A stretch of 20,276 nt of DNA, taken from a virus. The stretch is taken from the IMG/VR virus record IMGVR_UViG_3300022413_000054, positions 1 through 20,276 of that record. The stretch is one strand, 5' to 3'. Under the pieces are notes generated by a model. It was given only the letters and a program-made list of their open reading frames with translations. It had not been told where the DNA came from and did no database searches. Position 1 is the first letter of the stretch. The number at the start of each line of letters is the position of its first letter. This document shows positions 793 through 16,512 of this stretch, one piece after another. Made by a program: the position numbers and the translations under genes.

Positions 793-3700
793 CTAGTACC
801 TCGGATGCCTCTTAGTTGGAGGCGTGAAATTGCCAGAGTATATCACCTTCTTGATAACGCGAAGCTCTTCGATGCGGCCATCCCACAATTCAAAATTGTC
901 AGTGAATGATCCAATGATGATCGGTTCAGTCGTCGGATCAAAGAGCGTAGCTCCCGCGATAGCAGGTTGCACCGGTGACCCTTCAGTCAGCTCGACTCCA
1001 TCGACATAGCATCGAATACGTTCAGGCGAAACCGTATTGTCACGAACGAATGCGACGTGATGCCACACGTTTATGAACGGTGACGGAGCCCACGGGAATC
1101 TCGCAAAATTGAGAGCGGTGCCATCTGTAGACCAGAAAAACTCAAGACGACCAGGACCGACCGACCATCGGGCTCCCCACGACCGTTTCGAAACACCAGC
1201 GTCATAGTGTCCGACAAATGCCTGTGCCTCCTGGTTCTCATGTAGAAGCATTGCCTCGACTGTGAATGGACTGTCGCCTAGGGCTTGCCCCGCATTATAG
1301 GCGAACTGCATCTCCTCACCGTTGCTGATTGATTGCCACGTTTGAGGGCGGTACGTGCGGAACGGCTCATCCGGATCTGGGGACGGCTTCTGGAAGTACG
1401 CATTCTCGTGGCTGTAGTAGACATCAGACACGGCTTGTGATACAGCCGCTCCGATAAATGAATAATCTGCGGCGCTGGAATACTCTGCGACACGACGATC
1501 CGGGCCAGGCTGGAATATAGTCAAGTGCCAGTCAAACGGTTCTGTCCGTGCATCATAGTCACGTGCGTTGTATGCGATATGGCCGATGGTGATACGCGTC
1601 TCCGCGAGCCATCCATCGAGTACATCGACTGGCGCGCTCAGATTGAACGCGGTTCCGAAATTCCATGTCCGTGCGACGGCTGGCGTTGTCGCAATACGGA
1701 AAGGTATCGGTTGACCTTGCAGAACGCCATCAATGTGGAAATACACGATTGAGTCTCTGCGCGTCACAGATACGTGATACCACTGCTCCGGAGATGGACC
1801 GGCGACGGGTGTCCACGGTACAGAGGCCTCTTCTAGAGTTGTGGTTGCACCACTCGTCGTCTGTTGATACGACAAGCTCTGTGTCGCTCCGTTATATCCG
1901 AACCGCTGTGTTCGATCATTCGAATCTTCGTTCCACTGTCCCATAAACGTCGCATATGATTCTGGACTGGCTGTCGGGATGGTATTGAACATAACGAAGC
2001 ATTCAAGTGTGAAGTCAGAATTCTCGTAATCCCATACGGCATCATCCGGAATCGTAGCTCCACCGCGTGGCGATGTAATACCGCTGATCCGAAGCGAACC
2101 TGTCGGTTGTACTGAGTTCGGGAACGGTGTCAACACGTCAAGACTAGATCCGGCGAACACTGTTATCGCCCGAGCGTTCGCACTCACATCAACAGGGGTC
2201 AATAGCGGTGATCCGGCTCCACCGATCCAGTGTGACAAGAACTCCATGTGGGTTGAATCAGGATCAGGTTCACGAACATTTCGTCCGTATAGATTCGATC
2301 CAATTTGATCTGAGAACGGCGTCGTCGGAACCGTGTACGTATATTGAGGAGATTCATTTCCTTGAAGATCGAACGTTCCAGGTGATCCAACCAACGGAAA
2401 TGGCAGTGGTGATGCGGTAACATCGTATAGAGCTTCGTCGAGAGTGATGCGTGGTTCAGTGATCCATCCATCGAGCGCACGACTTCGTGAAGATGCGCTG
2501 ACATCGTAGTATCGACCAATAGCGAGTGTGTTCCCGAGTTGGTTCTTCAACTTGTTCCCGCTATCTGCGTCAACATGCTGGAAGAATCGTTCCTCGTAGC
2601 CTATCAGCTGCCCGTCGAGCCACATAAAGATGTCGTCGCCTTTTCGCGTGACGGCGTGGTGATGCCATTCGTTCAATGGAATCTTCAAGTGAGACGGCGA
2701 TTGTGCAGGCAAGGCCGCCGTCGTCGATTTCTGGCTGGAGATGGTGCCCGTTGGCGACCACCCGAAGATGATATTGTAACTTGCATTGATGTACCACCAC
2801 CAATCAATCGAGTTTCCTGACGGACGATTGTATTTCGTGAGCAACGCGGTTCCATCACCCTCCGTAGCGATGCGTTCCTTGCACCAGACCTCCAACGTGA
2901 AGTCCCTGTTTGAGAACTCGAATCGTTCAAGAACATTGTTGATACCTTCCGTTATCCAACCGCCGTCGGCTATTAGATGCGATGTTGAATCGACGCCGTC
3001 ACATCGAAGTGACCAGCGGGGTCCGACTCCGTCTGGTGATCCATTGAACGGATTGTGAGCCTCGATATCAGACGTTCCACCGAATGCCCATGTCCCATTC
3101 CAAATAGATAGGTCCGCCTTGCCCCCCGCAATAAACGGATCAAATGATGCAAGCAAGGAAGTCTTGTCGAACACCGATGGAAATTGTCCATCAACCGGCG
3201 ACTTCAATTCAGGCAGAACATAGTCGAGATTGTATAGTGCAAATCCCATCGTGAATCGTATCTCGTCCAACCACCCATACACAGATCCATCCGACGCCCC
3301 TGCGTCAGCTGCCCCAAATCCGACAACCCAATCAACGGCAGAATAATCCTGCCATGTGGTCGTGTGAGCTACGCTATCCCAAAGAACACCATTAACGAAT
3401 AGTGAGAATCTATCAACACCACCCGAGAATCTGTGCATAATCGCAAACGCATACCATTGGTCCTCGACGAAATCTAGGGGTGATATTCCAGCGTTAAGGA
3501 AGCTCACATTCGGGTTGACAGAGAATGTGGTCTGGCCACTTGCACTGTTCTGATATGTGATTGTGAATCGACCAAGTGATTCATCATAATAGAGGACGAA
3601 ACGATTCGCTGCTTCATCAACTCCGAAGTGAGAATTGATTCCCGTGTGCATGAAAATCGTCTTGTCTACAGTCAGCAATTCCTGATCGACCCGCATTCGG

Positions 3701-6700
3701 AACTCTAACGTCCAATCATTATTCCAATCAAACGTCGTACTCGGAGATTCCAGAGGAGCCGGAGCAGGGAAGTGCCATCCCGCCGCTCCCTGGTTTAGGA
3801 AACCTGTCGGCTCGTTAGGGATGCTGCCACTGGTCCCACTGAATACTGATTGCGTGGAATCGACCTCTGCGCGTCCAATCGCCGCGGCTGCCTCACCGGT
3901 TGAATATTGTGATACATCAAATACGTCTTTCGCACCATCATCACCAGCGAATCGTGTCTGGAACATGACTGCTTCTGGTGGAACAACGAACACGGCTGTC
4001 ACTTCAAAATCAAAGAACATGATTTCACGACTTGTTCGGAATGTCTCCGGTGATGTGATGATGTCATTCGGGGAATGTGATGTTTCAATTTCAAGACGTG
4101 CGGTGAACGTATTGCTGGTTCTCCCTAGAAGCGGAACCGCAGACTTGAGAAGTTGAATTTCAAATACACTAGGATCTCCAACAACGACATCCTGCGCGCT
4201 GTCAAATTCATCCACACCTCGTGTTGGTGTTGGCGTAGCGTCAAGGTCATAAATCCACCATGAGAGACGAAGCTGATCCTGTAGAATTTCGGTGATGTCG
4301 AACGGTGCACCTTCTTGATCAAGCCCCTCCACTTGCCAGATTGTATTCTCAACACGGAACCATCGGAACTTTGGAACAACTCTCGTCCCAACGAACTGCT
4401 GAACTGGAGACACAGGATTCGCTGATTGTCGAACATCATCGAAATTGATGAAGTTTTCCGGGCTAACAGATGTGATTGGGAAGTTCCCATACGTGAGACC
4501 GAAGTCCAACCCAATCGGTAGAAGCGGCTTCGCGTATCTTTCATCAGCTTCAATCACAACTGGCAAGGCAGAAGGAGGTACCGGAGAGTCCGTCAAATTC
4601 ACTCGATCCGTCTGTGTGATTGGCAAGAGTTTCACATCCAACGTATTCGAGACTGGGAAGACTTGAGGAACGATTCCCGTTCCGCCTGTCCATATAAACC
4701 AGATCTCTTCGCCTGGTGAATGGTTGTGCATCGCTGAATCAAGCGCGGCTCGATAGACTCCCTGGCACTCAACCGCGAGTGTCTCCGGTGATGTCAACCC
4801 AGTCAGGAATACAATCTCAGAAATCAGTATCCATTCTTCTGTCGCTGTCCCAGGATTGATTACGGCGACACCTGTTAGAGAACCAACTCCACCGGGAGCA
4901 TGAGTTCCGACAAGTTCTTCGAGAGGACCCTGTAGCGGATCAACACCAATTGTGAACGTGCCGTTGCCGTCCTGCCAAGGCGTCAAAGTATCACGGATCG
5001 TTCCAACTGTTGTCACACCGTTAGTGATTTCACCTTCAGCATCGAAGCCCGTAGGTGACGATGCGACGCTCTGGTCGACGTTCACTTCGTACGACAACGG
5101 TAGAGGGATCCCAGACCGGATCGCAGTGAACAGACGCGGATAATTTAGAGGGGTAACCGGATCGTTGACGTTGATGATGAATGGTGCTTCCATCGCCATT
5201 TGTGCCGCTGCCGCGAGAGGTGTCGCCACACTTGTTGGAGGAATGAACTCTGACGCTGGCGGATCAACGAACCCAACAAATTCGGATCCAAAGATATCTT
5301 CGACAGCATCAATGAGTAGACTCGCGTTAACCGGATCACCCTGCCGTATAGCAGTGATCCTCATCGCCATATTGGTGACGCCGACTTCAGCATCTGTGAA
5401 TGAGAACACGTCGCCGGGTCTCAGTTGCCATGCGGTTCGATTTATTTCAACCGTCGTTGAAGCCAGTGAGCGTGCCATGCCACGCAAGTCACGCCAGACA
5501 ATCTTATTCGCGACGTCAGCTTCATGAACACCAGGATACCTCGAAGTCCTGCTACGTGGGCGACCCTGAATAATTAGGTTCGCTAGATCCTGGGCAGGGG
5601 CATATCCATCCTTGTACTGTTTCTGCCGATCCGTGTACTGGACACGAAGTTCGTTGAAAGTTTGATTCCCTTCGCTGCGAGCGAACTTGTTGACGCTGAT
5701 GATGTTCGTTGCGTCAGCCTGGAACTCTGATGCCAACGTATAATCTTGTCGAGCGAGGTTGACTTCGAGTTGACCGGTGATTGGATTTGGGCCGATGTAG
5801 CCGTCGATGTGCTGCTCAATCGTATCAATCAATTTCGAAACTTTCTGCACCTGGTCGATAATGATGCTGAACCCGAGGCCTTCCGCCCATATAGTCTCCG
5901 CCGCGGCTTGGAAGTTCGCGAGGTTGATATCGCTAGGAGAAAGTCCCCGTCCCCAGTCGGTGTTCGTGAAGGCTTCATACGCCAATACAATCGGATTCAA
6001 GTCTTCGCCAATGAAGTGATGATCATTACCCAGCAATAGAGCGTCACCGAGTCCGCCGTTCGCGACTGTATCGAATGTCTGAATCTCGAACTTCATATTT
6101 CGAAGAGTATTGTTCTCTCCGATGTTCGCGCCGCTTACCTCCGCCGGCGTAGTCACGACGAAAACTCCGCCGAAACCAGTATTGACTGTCGATTCTATGT
6201 TCGATATTGTGACGTACGAGTATCCGCGGTATGCAGGAAGGTTCGTGATTCTGTCAGTTGGCTCAGGGGATGTAAGCCCAGTTCCCAGAAGATAGGCACT
6301 CTGTGCTTGAGCAGAGTTTCCATCAAAGAGGCGAATTGTTCCTTGGAATCCGCCACCTTCATCCCTGCCGCCAAATATGTCATCTCTATCGACAGTGATT
6401 GCACCGCTTCCGAGAACACTTCCATTGTCAATGACATAATCCCAAACGACATCGTCACCGATCCATATCCGTTTGATGCCGGCAGTCTGCCCGCGGATGA
6501 GTCCCATCTGTAAACCAAGGTAATACGTGAATCCAATGGCTTCATCTTTCTTGAAGATGAGTCCGGTCGTCACGGTACGCTCTTCAGCTCGGAAATCACC
6601 ATACCATACGACGTTCGGACCTTGCACAATCATTGTGCCGAATACGAGCGGCACATATCGTCCTTCAGTCGCAGTTGGAATCTGGAAGTCTCCCAGTCCG

Positions 6701-6831
6701 CTCGCAGTCACCTCAGGCAATGACTCTCGAAAATAATCTGTAATGACAAACGACGCCAACCACAGAAAGAACTGCGGCCAGAACATCAATACTGGTTCAA
6801 TCACATCAAGAGGAAGGAGTATTGCATCCAT
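793..6831 (-). CDS. gpJ-like tail-tip/central fibre protein with four C-terminal LamG-like domains
   Basis: 2012 aa, the largest gene in the window and the likely host-recognition protein at the tail tip. Residues 10-33 form one strongly hydrophobic segment (possible membrane helix). Residues 47-79 (GDFQIPTATEGRYVPLVFGT, then GPNVVWYGDF) match the N-terminal signature of gpJ-type tail-tip proteins, from memory. Residues 250-520 look like the hub region of that family. Residues 550-950 are beta-rich and unassigned. The C-terminal half holds four concanavalin A/LamG-like domains (about 956-1205, 1225-1475, 1528-1760, 1770-2000), each with a W-(H/Y)-(H/A)-type strand, a D/N-G turn and an ending like L-D-G-W-I-x-E-x-R-I-T. 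Such domains usually bind glycans, so surface carbohydrate is the likely receptor. The gene overlaps the gpL-like gene by one base (TAATG). There is no NlpC/P60 (gpK) or separate gpI gene before it, unlike lambda. Confidence 0.85.
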   Translation of the reverse strand: MDAILLPLDVIEPVLMFWPQFFLWLASFVITDYFRESLPEVTASGLGDFQIPTATEGRYVPLVFGTMIVQGPNVVWYGDFRAEERTVTTGLIFKKDEAIGFTYYLGLQMGLIRGQTAGIKRIWIGDDVVWDYVIDNGSVLGSGAITVDRDDIFGGRDEGGGFQGTIRLFDGNSAQAQSAYLLGTGLTSPEPTDRITNLPAYRGYSYVTISNIESTVNTGFGGVFVVTTPAEVSGANIGENNTLRNMKFEIQTFDTVANGGLGDALLLGNDHHFIGEDLNPIVLAYEAFTNTDWGRGLSPSDINLANFQAAAETIWAEGLGFSIIIDQVQKVSKLIDTIEQHIDGYIGPNPITGQLEVNLARQDYTLASEFQADATNIISVNKFARSEGNQTFNELRVQYTDRQKQYKDGYAPAQDLANLIIQGRPRSRTSRYPGVHEADVANKIVWRDLRGMARSLASTTVEINRTAWQLRPGDVFSFTDAEVGVTNMAMRITAIRQGDPVNASLLIDAVEDIFGSEFVGFVDPPASEFIPPTSVATPLAAAAQMAMEAPFIINVNDPVTPLNYPRLFTAIRSGIPLPLSYEVNVDQSVASSPTGFDAEGEITNGVTTVGTIRDTLTPWQDGNGTFTIGVDPLQGPLEELVGTHAPGGVGSLTGVAVINPGTATEEWILISEIVFLTGLTSPETLAVECQGVYRAALDSAMHNHSPGEEIWFIWTGGTGIVPQVFPVSNTLDVKLLPITQTDRVNLTDSPVPPSALPVVIEADERYAKPLLPIGLDFGLTYGNFPITSVSPENFINFDDVRQSANPVSPVQQFVGTRVVPKFRWFRVENTIWQVEGLDQEGAPFDITEILQDQLRLSWWIYDLDATPTPTRGVDEFDSAQDVVVGDPSVFEIQLLKSAVPLLGRTSNTFTARLEIETSHSPNDIITSPETFRTSREIMFFDFEVTAVFVVPPEAVMFQTRFAGDDGAKDVFDVSQYSTGEAAAAIGRAEVDSTQSVFSGTSGSIPNEPTGFLNQGAAGWHFPAPAPLESPSTTFDWNNDWTLEFRMRVDQELLTVDKTIFMHTGINSHFGVDEAANRFVLYYDESLGRFTITYQNSASGQTTFSVNPNVSFLNAGISPLDFVEDQWYAFAIMHRFSGGVDRFSLFVNGVLWDSVAHTTTWQDYSAVDWVVGFGAADAGASDGSVYGWLDEIRFTMGFALYNLDYVLPELKSPVDGQFPSVFDKTSLLASFDPFIAGGKADLSIWNGTWAFGGTSDIEAHNPFNGSPDGVGPRWSLRCDGVDSTSHLIADGGWITEGINNVLERFEFSNRDFTLEVWCKERIATEGDGTALLTKYNRPSGNSIDWWWYINASYNIIFGWSPTGTISSQKSTTAALPAQSPSHLKIPLNEWHHHAVTRKGDDIFMWLDGQLIGYEERFFQHVDADSGNKLKNQLGNTLAIGRYYDVSASSRSRALDGWITEPRITLDEALYDVTASPLPFPLVGSPGTFDLQGNESPQYTYTVPTTPFSDQIGSNLYGRNVREPDPDSTHMEFLSHWIGGAGSPLLTPVDVSANARAITVFAGSSLDVLTPFPNSVQPTGSLRISGITSPRGGATIPDDAVWDYENSDFTLECFVMFNTIPTASPESYATFMGQWNEDSNDRTQRFGYNGATQSLSYQQTTSGATTTLEEASVPWTPVAGPSPEQWYHVSVTRRDSIVYFHIDGVLQGQPIPFRIATTPAVARTWNFGTAFNLSAPVDVLDGWLAETRITIGHIAYNARDYDARTEPFDWHLTIFQPGPDRRVAEYSSAADYSFIGAAVSQAVSDVYYSHENAYFQKPSPDPDEPFRTYRPQTWQSISNGEEMQFAYNAGQALGDSPFTVEAMLLHENQEAQAFVGHYDAGVSKRSWGARWSVGPGRLEFFWSTDGTALNFARFPWAPSPFINVWHHVAFVRDNTVSPERIRCYVDGVELTEGSPVQPAIAGATLFDPTTEPIIIGSFTDNFELWDGRIEELRVIKKVIYSGNFTPPTKRHPRY
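832..3966 (-). repeat. Region encoding four tandem LamG/concanavalin-like domains
   Basis: Four diverged repeats of about 230-250 aa, coded at roughly 3966-3217, 3159-2407, 2250-1552 and about 1525-832. Equivalent core positions are visible: W1126, W1389-H1390-H1391-H1392, W1684-Y1685-H1686 and W1923-H1924-H1925; turns N1147-G1148, D1406-G1407, D1701-G1702 and D1944-G1945; and domain ends YGWLDEIRFT, LDGWITEPRIT, LDGWLAETRIT and WDGRIEELRVI. Domain 1 is the most diverged. The copies differ strongly in DNA, so this is old duplication or repeated acquisition rather than a recent expansion. Confidence 0.8.
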
Positions 6832-10724: not shown

Positions 10725-12166
10725 TAGAGAATCTCCATTGCGACCCATTTGTAGAGCTGCGTCGCGCTTATGTCTGGGAATACGATGTACCGCTTCCCGT
10801 TGAATTGTTCAATTTCCTGGAACGATGTGAGTCCTCGACCATGCACCGCTTCAAATCCGTCGATGATCCCGATTATCTGTACGTCACCGGTTTGGTTCGC
10901 GATGATGTGGGGCTGAACAACGAAACTCAGACGATTTGCAATTCCGAGAGGTCCAACACCTTGAACGCCATCACCTCCGCCAGCATCACTTCCAAACCAC
11001 GCTTCACTACCCGCTGATCCCATTTCTCGGAGTATTCCACCCTCAAGGAAACCAGGTAGCCCGGTATTTGGAGTCGTAACAAATCCATCAACCTGTGTCG
11101 CATACGTGAAGTCATAGTTCGCCGGATTGAATTGCGCTGGCCACATTTGAGCGCGCAATTCCGTCAATTCTGAGGTAGAGAAACTGATTGACAGCCATTG
11201 TGGTGATAGGTTGTCGCGGAACCAATACGGACCTGAAGTCACTGTTCCCGCTTGAACAGACATTGGATTTATGATGCCCGCCGCGACCGTGCTCGGATTA
11301 GAACTCAGCGTTGCCCAGACCTGGTTGAATGTAAGCGCCCCAGTCGTGGAACCCGCAGCAAGTCCAGGGAACGGATAATTCGCTTCAGTATTCGTGAACG
11401 GGATAAAGAATCCGAGAATTCCATAGTGAGAGAATGATCCATCTCGTATAAGGATGTTGACACGTCTCTCTGTGCTGGAGACGTATATCTCCGGATCATT
11501 CGATGGGCATGGGAGGTTACCAGCGTTCGGGCTCGCTCCTGGCTGCAAGAAGAATGATTGAGTTTTATCAAATCCTGTCGCAACCACCAGCTGGACATAC
11601 GGATTACCACCACCACCCTGGGAGTCAAGACCGATCGTCGCCGGATTGGTTGCTTTCGTGCTCGTGCAAAGCCAATGAAAATTTGTTCTATCATCGACAT
11701 AGTCTGTCGATGCGATAGGAGACTGAGCTCCGTTTCCTCGATCCTCAGTCCAGTAAGCTTTCTCTGGAATGATGTCAACTGTCAGAGCGTTATCGCCACC
11801 GGCACTTGAGTTCGCTGTCACGACACCAGTGATAGGAGTATCGAACGGTGAAGCTAGATTTGCAAGACCGACATACGAACCACCTGATATAATTGCAACC
11901 TGAGTCACGACGCCTGTCGCCGGACTTGCGGCTATGGCTGTCACAACACCTCTCGCGACAAAATTTACCCCAACCTGAGGTGAGGTTACGACACTGATGT
12001 CAAAAGTCTCACCAACTACGTATCCGGTGCCGCCAACATTGACACTGATTGAGCTGATACTGTCATTCGTGATGAAGTCAAAAATCGCTTTCGCGGTGAT
12101 AACCTGACCCAATGTTTCAGGAGACCCTGATCCACCGTTCGCGACGAGTTGTTCATGAAGCCACAT
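10724..12166 (-). CDS. Beta-rich tail structural protein of unknown function
   Basis: 480 aa. The N-terminus (about 15-32) is polar and helical, then residues 40-130 hold repeated beta motifs such as GGTGYVVGETFDIS and VTQVAIISGGSYVG, with further glycine-rich beta sequence after that. Residues 196-210 (ATGFDKTQSFFLQPG), 244-257 (FSHYGILGFFIPF) and 458-466 (KRYIVFPDI) form three blocks shared in order with the following 415-aa protein, so the two are probably tandem paralogues. No enzyme motif is visible. It directly follows the tape measure gene with a TAATG overlap and GGAG upstream, which places it among tail-tip or tail-surface structural proteins. It could decorate the distal tail or form part of the tip ring; sequence alone cannot decide. 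Confidence 0.75.
   Translation of the reverse strand: MWLHEQLVANGGSGSPETLGQVITAKAIFDFITNDSISSISVNVGGTGYVVGETFDISVVTSPQVGVNFVARGVVTAIAASPATGVVTQVAIISGGSYVGLANLASPFDTPITGVVTANSSAGGDNALTVDIIPEKAYWTEDRGNGAQSPIASTDYVDDRTNFHWLCTSTKATNPATIGLDSQGGGGNPYVQLVVATGFDKTQSFFLQPGASPNAGNLPCPSNDPEIYVSSTERRVNILIRDGSFSHYGILGFFIPFTNTEANYPFPGLAAGSTTGALTFNQVWATLSSNPSTVAAGIINPMSVQAGTVTSGPYWFRDNLSPQWLSISFSTSELTELRAQMWPAQFNPANYDFTYATQVDGFVTTPNTGLPGFLEGGILREMGSAGSEAWFGSDAGGGDGVQGVGPLGIANRLSFVVQPHIIANQTGDVQIIGIIDGFEAVHGRGLTSFQEIEQFNGKRYIVFPDISATQLYKWVAMEIL
10733..10736 (-). promoter_or_regulatory. Ribosome-binding site that decides the 10724 start
   Basis: GGAG on the minus strand, eight bases before the ATG at 10724. 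It sits downstream of the alternative ATG at 10748, so it can only serve the shorter form. Confidence 0.6.
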
Positions 12167-14454
12167 TAGTTATTTCTCCCGCCGTTGAGGGCTTGGTTGA
12201 CAGACGAGCTCTTCTCTCCGATAGCAGTTACAAGAGCTCTTTGACCGTTCGCTGATTGAAGAGCCTGCTCAACCTTCTTCGGATCATCAAGTACGACAAC
12301 CGGAGCAGGCATCACCGTCACTTGTGGTGCGGCCTGTGTCGCGCCATTCGGGATTACTGTCCCTGACTGACGCGGTGTGATAATCTCGGGTCCACCTTCA
12401 CCAACAAGGATTGGTTTGCCACCTTGGAAGTCACCACCACCTTGGAAGGATCCAGCGATTGTGCTGAAGATGTTGCCGCCACCCCCACCAAGGGCACTGA
12501 AGAACGACTTCAGGATCTGCTGCGACAGAAGCTCGGACGCCATTCGACGAAGGGTTTCACCGAAGCTACGAGCGAGACCTTTCAGTCCGTCGCTGAATGG
12601 ATCAAACAAGAAGTTCGCAAAGGCTGACTGAATGTTTCTCGCCGCCTGTACGGCGAACTCCGTCATAGAGTTGCCCGCTTCATCGAGTGTCTTCTTGGCT
12701 TCAGCGACTGAACGGTCAAACAAGTCTTGGTTGATGACACCTCTTTCGAGAAGACGATTGTAATCATCCAACGCCATGTTATACGTTTCAAGCGGCGTTC
12801 GAGTGTCATCGAAGAGCTGTCCGGCGAGTGCAAGGTCATCCGTCAAACCAGTCAAATCGTTGTCAGCTTTGATATAGGATGCGTTCGCTGCCTCAAGAGC
12901 CCGGACAAAGTTTTCAGCTGGAAGTTTTCCGGTGTTCCATTGTTCTACCAGCGCCGCCACTGCCGCCTTGTATGTCTCCAACGGTGTTCGTGTCGCTTCA
13001 ATTGTCTTTTGAATCTGTGTCAGGAGTTTCGGATCAATTGTAACTTCACCTTGAGTTCCCGCCCCTCGCTGTGACGTATCCTCGTTCAGCGCCGCCAGTC
13101 GAGCCTCCGCTCGTTGCCGAATCGCATCTTCCAGTCTCTTCTCCTGTGCGATTTGTGCTTCAACCAATGCCGTTCGATCCGCTTCAAGCGTCGCAAGCTG
13201 TCCAGCTAATTCTCTCTCAAGCCTAATCTGCTCAGCGGCTGATTCACCCGCGATTTCAACTCGACGTGCCGCAGCCTGTTCGGCCACCTCATCGTCTCCG
13301 ATGATTGTCGCAAGTGTCCCAACCAAGGCGTTCTGGAAATTTAGGAAACCAGTCTTCACTTCGCTAAAGAACCTGAACACGCGAGTCTTGAGGATAGCGA
13401 GACCATTCACGATTTCAACGATAGCCCGATTGATGAAGTTGGCAATCGTCAATGGTATCCGAAGCATCGCACGACCAATATCACCAGCGATTTCACCGAC
13501 GTTGATCCCAAGTCCAGTGAAGCCTTCAGTTGTTCGTCTTATTATCGCCCCAAACTCATCGAACGTCACCCCGAGTACGTCACCGAACTGGAGCATACCT
13601 TGAAGCAACGGTCCTTGGACAAATGTCGCGAGTCCGAGCAGGATATCGGCAAAGCCTCCGGCTGCCCCTGTGCTCTCCGCGAAAATACCAACTGTTCTAA
13701 TCAGCGAGTTCTGCAGAACTGTGAACGCCTGACTAATCGTTGGAATCGTCTTCTCAAATTCGGCTTCAAGAACAGACGCCTGACTTTGCAAGGCCTGAAT
13801 AACCGCCACAGATGACAATTTACCAGCCGCTCCCAACTCGCGCAATTTACCAATCGGAACGCCAAGTCCATCGGCGATAGCTCTCGCTAGGCGAGGAGTC
13901 TGCTCAAGAATGGATCGCAGTTCGTCACCACGCAGGGTACCAGAGGCCATGGCTTGACCCAACTGTACGATAGCCGCGTTCGCTGATGCAGCCGCGACAC
14001 CACTCAGGGTGATGGCTTTTGAAACGGTATCCGTGACCTGTGCCACGTCGTCAAGAGACAAACCGAGTGTCTCAGAGGAACGAGCTACCCGTTGAAATAG
14101 CTCAGCCGTGGATGCGAATCCGATACGATTCTTCTGCGCTATATCGAAAATCGTCTGTTGTACCTTCTCCAGCTGTTTACCGGACTTGGTTACAAGCCGG
14201 AGCCTGTTGTTGATTTCCTGGAAGGTGTTTGTCAGTCGACCAAGTTCACGAAGAACAAATGACGCGGCAAGAACTTTTAGGACACGTCCTAGGCTGAAGG
14301 CGCTCTTTCTTTGTCTGTCAAATGCCTTGGTAGTTCTGTCGGCCGCGACGGCAGTCTGGCCAGCGGCCTTTCGGATTCCGAAGAGGCTACGCTTAACCGT
14401 TTCAGCGCCCGTCTGGGCGCGTCTACCGTCAATTCCAACTTTAAGGTCTGGCAT
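12166..14454 (-). CDS. Tail tape measure protein
   Basis: 762 aa. Residues 60-255 match the tape-measure N-terminal domain, including GTLRGDELRSILEQTPRLAR (172-191) and the following GLGV, LRELGAAGKLSS and VIQAL. A hydrophobic middle (about 262-385) contains likely membrane-active helices. Residues 388-455 are an Ala/Glu/Arg-rich coiled coil. TRTPLETY occurs twice, at 488-495 and 551-558, each heading a similar helical unit. The C-terminus has the frequent tape-measure ending GGKPILVGEGGPEIITPRQS followed by GTVIPNG (678-704). The protein sets tail length and fills the tube before DNA ejection; at about 0.15 nm per residue it predicts a tail near 110-115 nm (inference). It lies one base after the chaperone stop. 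Confidence 0.93.
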   Translation of the reverse strand: MPDLKVGIDGRRAQTGAETVKRSLFGIRKAAGQTAVAADRTTKAFDRQRKSAFSLGRVLKVLAASFVLRELGRLTNTFQEINNRLRLVTKSGKQLEKVQQTIFDIAQKNRIGFASTAELFQRVARSSETLGLSLDDVAQVTDTVSKAITLSGVAAASANAAIVQLGQAMASGTLRGDELRSILEQTPRLARAIADGLGVPIGKLRELGAAGKLSSVAVIQALQSQASVLEAEFEKTIPTISQAFTVLQNSLIRTVGIFAESTGAAGGFADILLGLATFVQGPLLQGMLQFGDVLGVTFDEFGAIIRRTTEGFTGLGINVGEIAGDIGRAMLRIPLTIANFINRAIVEIVNGLAILKTRVFRFFSEVKTGFLNFQNALVGTLATIIGDDEVAEQAAARRVEIAGESAAEQIRLERELAGQLATLEADRTALVEAQIAQEKRLEDAIRQRAEARLAALNEDTSQRGAGTQGEVTIDPKLLTQIQKTIEATRTPLETYKAAVAALVEQWNTGKLPAENFVRALEAANASYIKADNDLTGLTDDLALAGQLFDDTRTPLETYNMALDDYNRLLERGVINQDLFDRSVAEAKKTLDEAGNSMTEFAVQAARNIQSAFANFLFDPFSDGLKGLARSFGETLRRMASELLSQQILKSFFSALGGGGGNIFSTIAGSFQGGGDFQGGKPILVGEGGPEIITPRQSGTVIPNGATQAAPQVTVMPAPVVVLDDPKKVEQALQSANGQRALVTAIGEKSSSVNQALNGGRNN

Positions 14455-14455
14455 C

Positions 14456-14803
14456 TTACTTCTTAGCCTTCTGCTTCTCTTTGGCCTTCTTAGCCGCCCA
14501 ATCGAGGTAGATGGTATCTAGCCGTCGAAGATGGCGGACGAGTTCAGCTGAATCTTCCGCATTGTAAAGGTTCAACCTTGCATATGCCTCAATCTCTGAT
14601 GTCAGCAGAGCCTGAGGATGTCCGTATCCGTATTGCCTGGAAGCCTCCAAATCGCCAAAGGCGGACCAGACATGATCCAGTCCTTCGAAGAGTTCGGGCC
14701 TTTTCTCCAACGCTGGAGGTATCTTGCCCGAGTTGTCCCAAACTCTATAAAGCGTCTCTAGGTGGGGTCCCCACTCAAGGTTCCAATCTAGGACGCTTTT
14801 GAG
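14456..14803 (-). CDS. T-type tail assembly chaperone extension, read through a -1 frameshift
   Basis: A -1 frame reading region of 115 aa that continues the G-type chaperone. From the slippery site it reads LKSVLDWNLEWGPHLETLYR and on through LEKRPELFEGLDHVWSAFGD to a Lys-rich end (AAKKAKEKQKAKK), with no stop on the way. A free-standing start is poor: the best candidate is TTG at 14710 with no clear ribosome-binding site, and it would discard residues that look like part of the domain. The P-P-A-L-E-K-R-P-E-L...W-x-A-F-x-x-L pattern is typical of second chaperone ORFs. As in lambda gpG/gpGT, the fused form (131 + 115 = 246 aa) should bind tail tube subunits through the T part and tape measure through the G part. 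It ends one base before the tape measure gene. Confidence 0.85.
   Translation of the reverse strand, partial: LKSVLDWNLEWGPHLETLYRVWDNSGKIPPALEKRPELFEGLDHVWSAFGDLEASRQYGYGHPQALLTSEIEAYARLNLYNAEDSAELVRHLRRLDTIYLDWAAKKAKEKQKAKK
14749..14799 (-). promoter_or_regulatory. Predicted frameshift-stimulating RNA stem-loop
   Basis: Minus-strand RNA 14799-14788 (AAAGCGUCCUAG) pairs with 14761-14749 (CUAGAGACGCUUU): 12 base pairs with one bulged A at 14757. Inside it GUGGG (14774-14770) and CCCAC (14766-14762) form a second hairpin with a three-base loop. The stem begins three bases after the slippery heptamer, or six if the weak AAA/UUU foot is open, which is close to the usual spacing for -1 frameshifting. 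The zero-frame UAG stop (14790-14788) lies inside the stem. Found by hand; no folding energy was computed. Confidence 0.75.
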
Positions 14804-15195
14804 TTTTTTGAGTCTTCCTCTTCAACTTCACGCTGGTACGCATTCATTGTTTCAGAGATTTCAAAAACGATGTCACGGAAATCACGTACCTCTTTCAGAA
14901 GTTCGTATGCCTTCTTCTGACTATACTTGATGTTCTTGCCATCGTCGTCTGTTATCCCCTTCCAATCCAGGAGTATCGTCTCCGATGCTGTCTGGTACAA
15001 GAGTTCCTCTTGCACTTCGATAGGCAACATGCCTCTCGTCATCGTGTGACGATACTGCTTCCCTAGAGTTCGAAGTCTTTCCTTGTATCTTGGGTTCTCG
15101 ATACGGGCGACAAGAATCTCCGCTCCGTCCCCGATATCAACCCAGACTCCATTGACCTCAAGGTCACTATCAGTCTTCAGTTTCGAAATTTTCAT
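14788..15195 (-). CDS. G-type tail assembly chaperone
   Basis: 135 aa, starting at ATG 15195 with AGGAG six bases upstream. The N-terminus (MKISKLKTDSDLEVNGVWVD) and the following beta segment (GAEILVARIENPRYKERLR) are typical of short phage tail chaperones placed between tube and tape measure genes. The rest is helical and the end is acidic (REVEEEDSKNSKAS). Codons TCA AAA AAC near the 3' end contain a perfect slippery heptamer, after which only four more residues are read in the zero frame. Ribosomes that slip make a 246-aa fusion with the next reading frame. The protein should bind the tape measure and is normally absent from the finished virion. A hairpin in the leader may lower its expression relative to the tube gene. 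Confidence 0.88.
   Translation of the reverse strand: MKISKLKTDSDLEVNGVWVDIGDGAEILVARIENPRYKERLRTLGKQYRHTMTRGMLPIEVQEELLYQTASETILLDWKGITDDDGKNIKYSQKKAYELLKEVRDFRDIVFEISETMNAYQREVEEEDSKNSKAS
14803..14809 (-). promoter_or_regulatory. Slippery heptamer A AAA AAC for -1 ribosomal frameshifting
   Basis: The heptamer lies in the correct register of the chaperone gene: zero-frame codons are TCA AAA AAC, giving X XXY YYZ = A AAA AAC, one of the most efficient heptamers in bacteria. After slipping, the next codon is CTC and the frame stays open to the stop at 14458-14456. Confidence 0.9.
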
Positions 15196-15252: not shown

Positions 15253-16512
15253 TTATTGCACTAGGGTAGGAATGGTACCGAATCGATTGATTCCCATTGT
15301 GAACCCTAGAACCGGGTCCCTCTTTGCAGTGAACTCCGTACTGATCAATACGTCCTCGTCGTTTCCGCCAGCCACCACTTCTCCGGAGGTGAACTTGAAT
15401 GACGGGAAGTCGAACAGGTACGTATTGCCACCGAGCGTTATAGTGAACGACAGTGCGACAGTATCGAAGTTCAAATACTTCTCGTAGAAATCTCTGTTCA
15501 CAAAGTACGCTATCAGCGTACCAGAAACCTGTGTTCGTCCGACACCTATGCCGCTGTTCTCGAGCTGGCCGATGCAAGGCTGGTTTCGAAGATTGTTCTC
15601 AATCGAGATCGAAATCTCCGTGAAACATACATTCGGATCAGCGACTCCGTCGATAAGGACGTTGCCGACATTATCGATAGCGTTGAACACATCAGTGGCC
15701 GCGACTTCAACGAGCTGCGGCGAGATGAGTCCTTCAATCTTTGACCCGGCCTGGACTGTGGCTGTTTCTCCCTGGAAGGCAAATGAGCCGTTCAAGATGC
15801 TTCCAGTCGCGATATTGATTTCCGCAGTACCGACTCGCATGCCTGTGAATGTGATAGTTTCAGGCAATTCCGGCGAGTTGGCTGACGCTGTGTCAAGGAA
15901 CGCCTTCTCAAGCATATACGATTTGAGCGTCGTACCGTTTCGGAGATGGCTCTCACGAATGCGGAACGTATCCTGGCCAATGCTCGGCAGAGCGGGGCTC
16001 ACCGTAATTGAACCAGCGAGGCTATTCGCTGTCACTCGCGTGAAACCGTTGTTCGTCGGTGACGCGACTGATTCTGTGATTTCGATGAACGACCCCACCG
16101 TCAAGGCATTGAGCAAGGCCGCTCCACCTACTTCCGGAGAACCAATTCCGATGGTGCTGCCGTTAGGCGATCCAGCGACAAGGAACGTATCCGCCAGAGG
16201 CGAGATAGTATTGCTGTCCTGGACGGGGGTCCAATCGTTGTAGAGCGCCCCTTCGAATAGATCATCGTGGGACGCGAAACTGAATTCGATTCCGACATCT
16301 CCGCCAGACTCGACACCGGTACGGATGATGTCCGCTACCTGTCTATCGCTCCGGATTTCCTCGGAGACTTCAGTCTGTGCTTCAAAATTCAGAGATTCGT
16401 TCGTGAATCTGAATTCACGCAATGGTAGCAATGGCGATGCGGCCGCTGCTGGGTCTTCACCCCAGACGACTTCCTCGCGATAGGCTAGTCTGGTACTTGA
16501 ACTATCTGACAC
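15253..16512 (-). CDS. Major tail tube protein
   Basis: 419 aa, starting with GTG at 16512; GAGGGAG eight bases upstream supports this start. The N-terminus (STRLAYREEVVWGEDPAAAA, then LLPLREFRFTNESLNFEA and RSDRQVADIIRTG) resembles the tube protein family in which S-x-R-x-x-x-x-x-R-x-x-x-D is typical, from memory. Further beta strands follow, with a Ser/Gly/Pro-rich insertion around 100-175 and a C-terminal strand set ending near VLISTEFTAKRDPVLGFTMG. At 419 aa it is long for a tube subunit, so the insertion probably forms a surface domain on the tube. Hexamer rings of this protein should stack around the tape measure to make the flexible tail. Position between the terminator and chaperone genes fits exactly. 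Confidence 0.88.
   Translation of the reverse strand: MSDSSSTRLAYREEVVWGEDPAAAASPLLPLREFRFTNESLNFEAQTEVSEEIRSDRQVADIIRTGVESGGDVGIEFSFASHDDLFEGALYNDWTPVQDSNTISPLADTFLVAGSPNGSTIGIGSPEVGGAALLNALTVGSFIEITESVASPTNNGFTRVTANSLAGSITVSPALPSIGQDTFRIRESHLRNGTTLKSYMLEKAFLDTASANSPELPETITFTGMRVGTAEINIATGSILNGSFAFQGETATVQAGSKIEGLISPQLVEVAATDVFNAIDNVGNVLIDGVADPNVCFTEISISIENNLRNQPCIGQLENSGIGVGRTQVSGTLIAYFVNRDFYEKYLNFDTVALSFTITLGGNTYLFDFPSFKFTSGEVVAGGNDEDVLISTEFTAKRDPVLGFTMGINRFGTIPTLVQ

Follow-up and report, generated by a model that had tools for sequence, protein, structure and literature searches.

Organization of the tail chaperone locus

The window, a 20,276-nt stretch of viral DNA (IMG/VR record IMGVR_UViG_3300022413_000054), carries on its minus strand the gene order tail tube, G, T and tape measure, the classic position of the G/GT tail assembly chaperones (Table 1). 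In profile searches gene G matches the tail assembly chaperone families phrog_313 (E 2e-22) and phrog_8233 (E 2e-15), and its homologues are present in 228 phage records. The T product matches Pfam PF23812, Phage_TAC_18 (E 4e-15), with the profile match running from residue 23, and T overlaps G in the -1 frame with no start of its own at the domain boundary. Positions 8-140 of phrog_8233 are covered by G and positions 141-258 by T, such that a fusion of the two is homologous to known GT proteins from end to end. Because phrog_8233 is one protein through both halves, the fusion predicted in the window is a known protein form.

Table 1. Features of the chaperone locus, in order of transcription
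Feature	Position	Strand	Basis
Tail tube protein gene, directly upstream	15253..16512	-	Pfam Phage_tube_2, E 2e-48
Gene G, 135-aa tail assembly chaperone	14788..15195	-	ORF; phrog_313, phrog_8233; homologues
Shine-Dalgarno-like GAGGA, probable upstream stimulator	14816..14820	-	enrichment and codon choice in relatives
Slippery heptamer A_AAA_AAC	14809-14803	-	in register with gene G; sequence
T domain, -1 frame, 115 aa after the shift	14456..14803	-	translation; PF23812; phrog_8233
Spacer UCA, 3 nt (6 if the A-U foot is open)	14800..14802	-	sequence and fold
Stem 5' arm, 12 bp, includes the stop TAG	14788..14799	-	fold
Alternative inner hairpin GUGGG-GAC-CCCAC	14762..14774	-	about 5% of the ensemble
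Stem 3' arm, bulged A at 14757	14749..14761	-	fold; comparison with L269
Tape measure protein gene, directly downstream	12166..14454	-	Pfam TMP_3, E 3e-59

Between the tail tube gene and G lies a small hairpin, CCCAGC-AUUUC-GUUGGG (15238-15221, minus strand). At the same junction the hairpin of two related loci, L017 and L021, is stronger and GC-rich, and in L017 it is followed by a U run. The junction hairpin resembles a weak terminator and could lower chaperone expression. Elsewhere on the minus strand, positions 234-791 encode a Glycosyl hydrolase 108 endolysin whose acidic repeat of DxDGDG type (DLDGDGLPDGDLDGDGDVDIDD) has the look of a calcium-binding insert. The 2012-aa tail protein encoded at 793-6831, also on the minus strand, matches Phage-tail_3, contains four stretches of concanavalin A-like type (Laminin_G_3) and is probably receptor-binding.

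The frameshift site and its downstream stem

The minus strand reads GAGGAAGACUC A AAA AAC UCA AAAGCGUCCUAG ... CUAGAGACGCUUU, with AAA (14808-14806) and AAC (14805-14803) as the zero-frame codons of the heptamer. A sequence-only reading of the window had proposed a complete -1 frameshift cassette here, and a check against the minus strand finds every one of its coordinates correct. The heptamer is in register with gene G, the spacer has 3 nt or, with the AAA/UUU foot open, 6 nt, and the zero-frame stop TAG (14790-14788) lies inside the stem, where it occupies the last three positions of the 5' arm. As claimed, the -1 frame also stays open for 115 codons beyond the shift, into the T-type ORF; the whole open stretch extends from 14821 to a stop at 14456. 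The 115 aa that follow Asn131 begin with L-K-S-V, and the predicted GT fusion has 246 aa. Inspection of the ORF finds no ATG, GTG or TTG in the T frame ahead of the TTG at 14710.

Folding recovers the proposed stem of 12 pairs with one bulge, at pair probabilities of 0.84-1.0. The fold of 14812-14740 reaches -26.3 kcal/mol (z -4.59), a value that none of 200 dinucleotide shuffles equals. When the T protein is held fixed and synonymous codons are drawn from the window's own two genes, 10 of 1000 shuffles fold as well as the window (z -2.85). The hairpin begins a few nucleotides downstream of the heptamer and is stronger than expected, which is the pattern by which dnaX- and IS3-type sites are recognized. 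The stem interior is less settled: the 5-bp GC-rich inner hairpin of the sequence-only reading can form, but as a minor conformer rather than as the dominant nested fold. The nested structure has -20.1 kcal/mol against -21.5 kcal/mol for the minimum free energy structure, whose interior instead pairs CCU (14780-14778) with GGG (14772-14770), plus GG with CC, and several stem interiors fall within about 1.5 kcal/mol. A duplex between the loop and downstream sequence, which a frameshift-stimulating pseudoknot would need besides the stem, is weak (-6.2 kcal/mol, duplex energy only). Rfam returned nothing above threshold, the one chance match (sraL) scoring 15.9 bits where the gathering score is 39.

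Frame and slippery sequence in related phages

A viral contig collection was searched with a conserved tape-measure segment and then with aligned G and T proteins, which yielded many relatives; single-protein scans with G, T or the whole tape measure protein found no close ones. Profile hits for the two chaperone parts adjoin at 134 loci. All of these place T in the -1 frame of G, and at 125 there is an in-register heptamer, mainly A_AAA_AAC or G_GGA_AAC. The 75 nonredundant sites, set by a 75% identity cut-off that controls relatedness only in part, comprise 43 A_AAA_AAC, 21 G_GGA_AAC and a few variants. The other nine of the 134 loci (L237, L239 and L262-L268) have no canonical heptamer by the rule used, with T still in the -1 frame, and so another shift motif may operate there. 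In most relatives the homology of T starts at the shift point with the pattern L...L.W.L..G, where there is no start codon.

All 12 annotated phage loci have A_AAA_AAC or G_GGA_AAC in register, and in all of them the -1 frame is open. Two annotated phages with a G homologous to that of the window are Kakheti25 (Septimatrevirus), whose record carries a 'projected programmed translational frameshift', and CcrMagneto, annotated with a 'programmed frameshift'; AAAAAAC has been named as the site at the same gene in phiCbK (PMC3556154). In the deposits of Pan1 (L008), Pavpe01 (L009) and R5C (L003) the T half is unannotated or a separate ORF, and all three have an in-register heptamer and an open -1 frame. 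Four distant loci, L040 (3294), L044 (2698), L098 (3294) and L099 (3270), carry an in-register U_UUU_UUC that lies 57-81 nt ahead of the stop of G, and two of them sit in Gemmatimonas-type genomes. This points to a further slippery sequence for this pair of genes.

The frame of T, the retention of the heptamer, the span of phrog_8233 across the fusion, the homology of both halves and the annotations of Kakheti25 and CcrMagneto argue for an ordinary gpG/gpGT programmed frameshift. We put the probability that the site is a -1 programmed ribosomal frameshift making the tail chaperones gpG and gpGT at roughly 0.9. The basis is sequence and comparison, in the form of an in-register heptamer, an open -1 frame, homology, conservation and excess structure.

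A hairpin kept by position

Fold z-scores in 60-nt windows slid over G and T of 32 nonredundant loci show a sharp minimum (mean -2.08) in the window directly after the heptamer, with other windows mostly between about 0.3 and -0.8 and secondary dips near -1.0 at -60, +45 and +60. Under a synonymous-codon control the 32 loci have a mean z of -1.82 after the heptamer and 0.01 in internal T windows (Mann-Whitney p 5e-8); the corresponding values are -1.18 and -0.11 at 75 loci (p 2e-8) and -0.86 and -0.13 at 45 held-out loci that were fetched afterwards (p 5e-4). Values of z < -1.5 occur in 39% of nonredundant relatives versus 9% of control windows. Over half of the relatives have no significant structure after the heptamer, and the stem may therefore be dispensable. 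Four Loki-like, Septimatrevirus and YuA relatives (L007, L009, L010 and L011) are mostly unstructured or nearly so just past the heptamer, L009 excepted, and fold strongly (z -3.3 to -5.1) about 45-105 nt beyond it.

Compensatory changes, to which the sequence-only reading had looked, appear in one subclade. In the subclade of L183, L184, L189, L199-L201, L203 and L205 both sides have changed at 6 of 17 stem pairs, and the covariation score is 0.231, where slid registers reach 0.101 at most. A 16-sequence alignment of the wider set gives no shared pairs in RNAalifold, since the pairing register drifts: in the register of the window, relatives keep a mean of 5.0 of 12 pairs, barely above slid registers, so that base-by-base conservation of the pairs seen in the window is absent. 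Two of the closer relatives are instructive as single cases. L181, a close relative in G, has a G_GGA_AAC heptamer and keeps the 5' arm AAGCGUCCUAG, which its 3' arm complements despite a 2-nt offset and different encoded amino acids. L269, the closest relative in T, keeps 9 of 12 pairs and the position of the bulged A, with three pairs via wobble changes.

Because folding is better than expected with the protein fixed and the subclade carries compensatory changes, the downstream stem is probably a real frameshift stimulator. The comparison would best be read as selection, in a large part of the family, for having a hairpin at this position, with drift in the exact bases that pair. The sequence-only reading would have been in difficulty had relatives kept neither heptamer nor stem pairing, and what they keep is the heptamer almost throughout and the stem by position.

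A Shine-Dalgarno-like element upstream

The window also holds an element that the sequence-only reading did not mention, GAGGA, with GAGG about 7-8 nt before the heptamer and AGGA at 7 nt. Within the experimentally supported range of stimulatory spacings, taken from PMC4066793, such a motif occurs in 55 of the 75 nonredundant relatives, versus 18% of control positions. As the G tail is Glu-rich, codon choice provides a fair test of the motif. The position tested is the fourth codon before the P-site codon, wherever this encodes Glu and is followed by a codon with G as its first base; the position was picked on a first set of loci and confirmed on a second, with relatedness handled by the 75% cut-off. 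GAG is used at this codon in 31 of 38 cases against 19.0 expected, and in the held-out loci in 20 of 22 against 12.4 expected. GAGGA is thus a probable upstream stimulator of the shift.

Alternative explanations

The most serious alternative accepts the frameshift and lets the heptamer alone drive it, the stem and GAGGA being incidental to the coding sequence. Many relatives, L007, L012, L190 and L006 among them, lack excess folding, the exact stem pairs are not conserved family-wide, and Glu-rich G tails yield GAGG through codon content. Yet codon content leaves the preference of GAG over GAA at a fixed Glu unaccounted for, and a merely incidental stem is hard to reconcile with one that folds better than 990 of 1000 synonymous versions, with a family excess that peaks just past the heptamer and is seen again in held-out loci, or with the covariation in the L183-L205 subclade. 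We consider this alternative unlikely though far from negligible, and prefer a shift with probable stimulators on either side.

A second alternative makes T a separate protein from its own internal start, without fusion, as its annotation as an independent ORF in several deposited genomes (e.g. R5C, Xp15) and the TTG at 14710 might be taken to indicate. That TTG, however, stands 31 codons into T, and a protein begun there would lose L...L.W.L..G and part of Phage_TAC_18. Separate genes would also have no need of the -1 frame at all 134 loci or of the heptamer at 125, and phrog_8233 is a single protein across G and T. Since the first possible start is codon 32 of T, a separate T start is rejected as very improbable. 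Equally improbable is slippage of RNA polymerase on the run of six consecutive A, with the fusion made from an edited mRNA instead of by the ribosome: it is rejected because 21 of the 75 nonredundant relatives, including L181, use G_GGA_AAC, which has no six-base homopolymer, and the strict codon register of the heptamer fits slippage of tRNA, not of polymerase.

Comparison with known systems and model of the shift

In phage lambda the gpG/gpGT slippery sequence is G_GGA_AAG. As in the window, the lambda pair sits between the tail tube and tape measure genes, consists of a short G and a -1 frame T extension, and has a canonical X_XXY_YYZ heptamer near the end of G. The heptamer of the window is A_AAA_AAC, and the window differs from lambda further in its Phage_TAC_18/phrog_8233 family and in having a strong downstream stem and a Shine-Dalgarno-like motif. 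Frameshifted G/GT pairs are conserved across long-tailed phages (Xu, Hendrix, Duda 2004; reviewed in PMC5009743).

Closer to the window are the pre-tape-measure chaperones of Kakheti25 (gp18/gp19), the phiCbK-like phages (CcrMagneto; phiCbK gp93/94) and Burkholderia phage KL1 (gp18/gp19), all with A_AAA_AAC or G_GGA_AAC sites; G is homologous in Kakheti25 and CcrMagneto, and KL1 is likened by description only. From the heptamer start to the end of the zero-frame stop is 9 nt in Kakheti25 and CcrMagneto and 21 nt in the window, which has four extra codons (SKAS) and its stop placed inside the stem. The sequence-only reading held so well placed a nested structure downstream of such sites to be less common, a view that needs tempering, as hairpins there are not unusual. 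A hairpin has been predicted for the KL1 and AH2 frameshift sites (PMC3483164), a survey of E. coli-type motifs predicted a conserved hairpin in three of five phage clusters and judged it relevant in one (PMC4066793), and the excess of strong folds among the relatives points the same way.

By the criteria of PMC4066793, the window shares with E. coli dnaX and IS911/IS3-family elements an upstream Shine-Dalgarno-like motif, an A-rich heptamer and a hairpin a few nucleotides downstream. The genes are different and non-homologous, the dnaX heptamer is A_AAA_AAG in contrast to A_AAA_AAC, and the GAGG of the window, 7 nt before the heptamer, is near the short end of the tested range.

In the model that we favour, most ribosomes would read G and stop at the TAG, producing gpG, which is the output of ordinary translation. 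In a minority, tRNA-Lys on AAA and tRNA-Asn on AAC would slip back by one base on A_AAA_AAC, and the slipped ribosomes would continue through the T frame to give the 246-aa gpGT. The stem-loop may pause or pull on the ribosome and thereby raise the shift rate, while GAGGA would pair with 16S rRNA as in dnaX and IS911; the assumptions on tRNAs and the anti-Shine-Dalgarno sequence are general rather than specific to the host. By analogy with lambda, G would bind the tape measure protein and T would recruit the tail tube protein, and the ratio of G to GT would matter for tail assembly (PMC5009743).

The window is a clean added case of a known phage mechanism that would set the ratio of two tail chaperones. 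The assignment bears on annotation, as T is treated as a gene of its own, or overlooked, in several deposited genomes. More useful than the single case is the comparative result, and what it offers that is modestly new would be evidence, controlled for the protein and tested on held-out loci, for stimulators before and after the heptamer in the Phage_TAC_18 family. We lean, by a little, towards the view that a large share of this family uses a three-part cassette of GAGG about 7 nt upstream, the heptamer, and a hairpin about 3-8 nt downstream, the hairpin being selected by position while its pairs drift in register.
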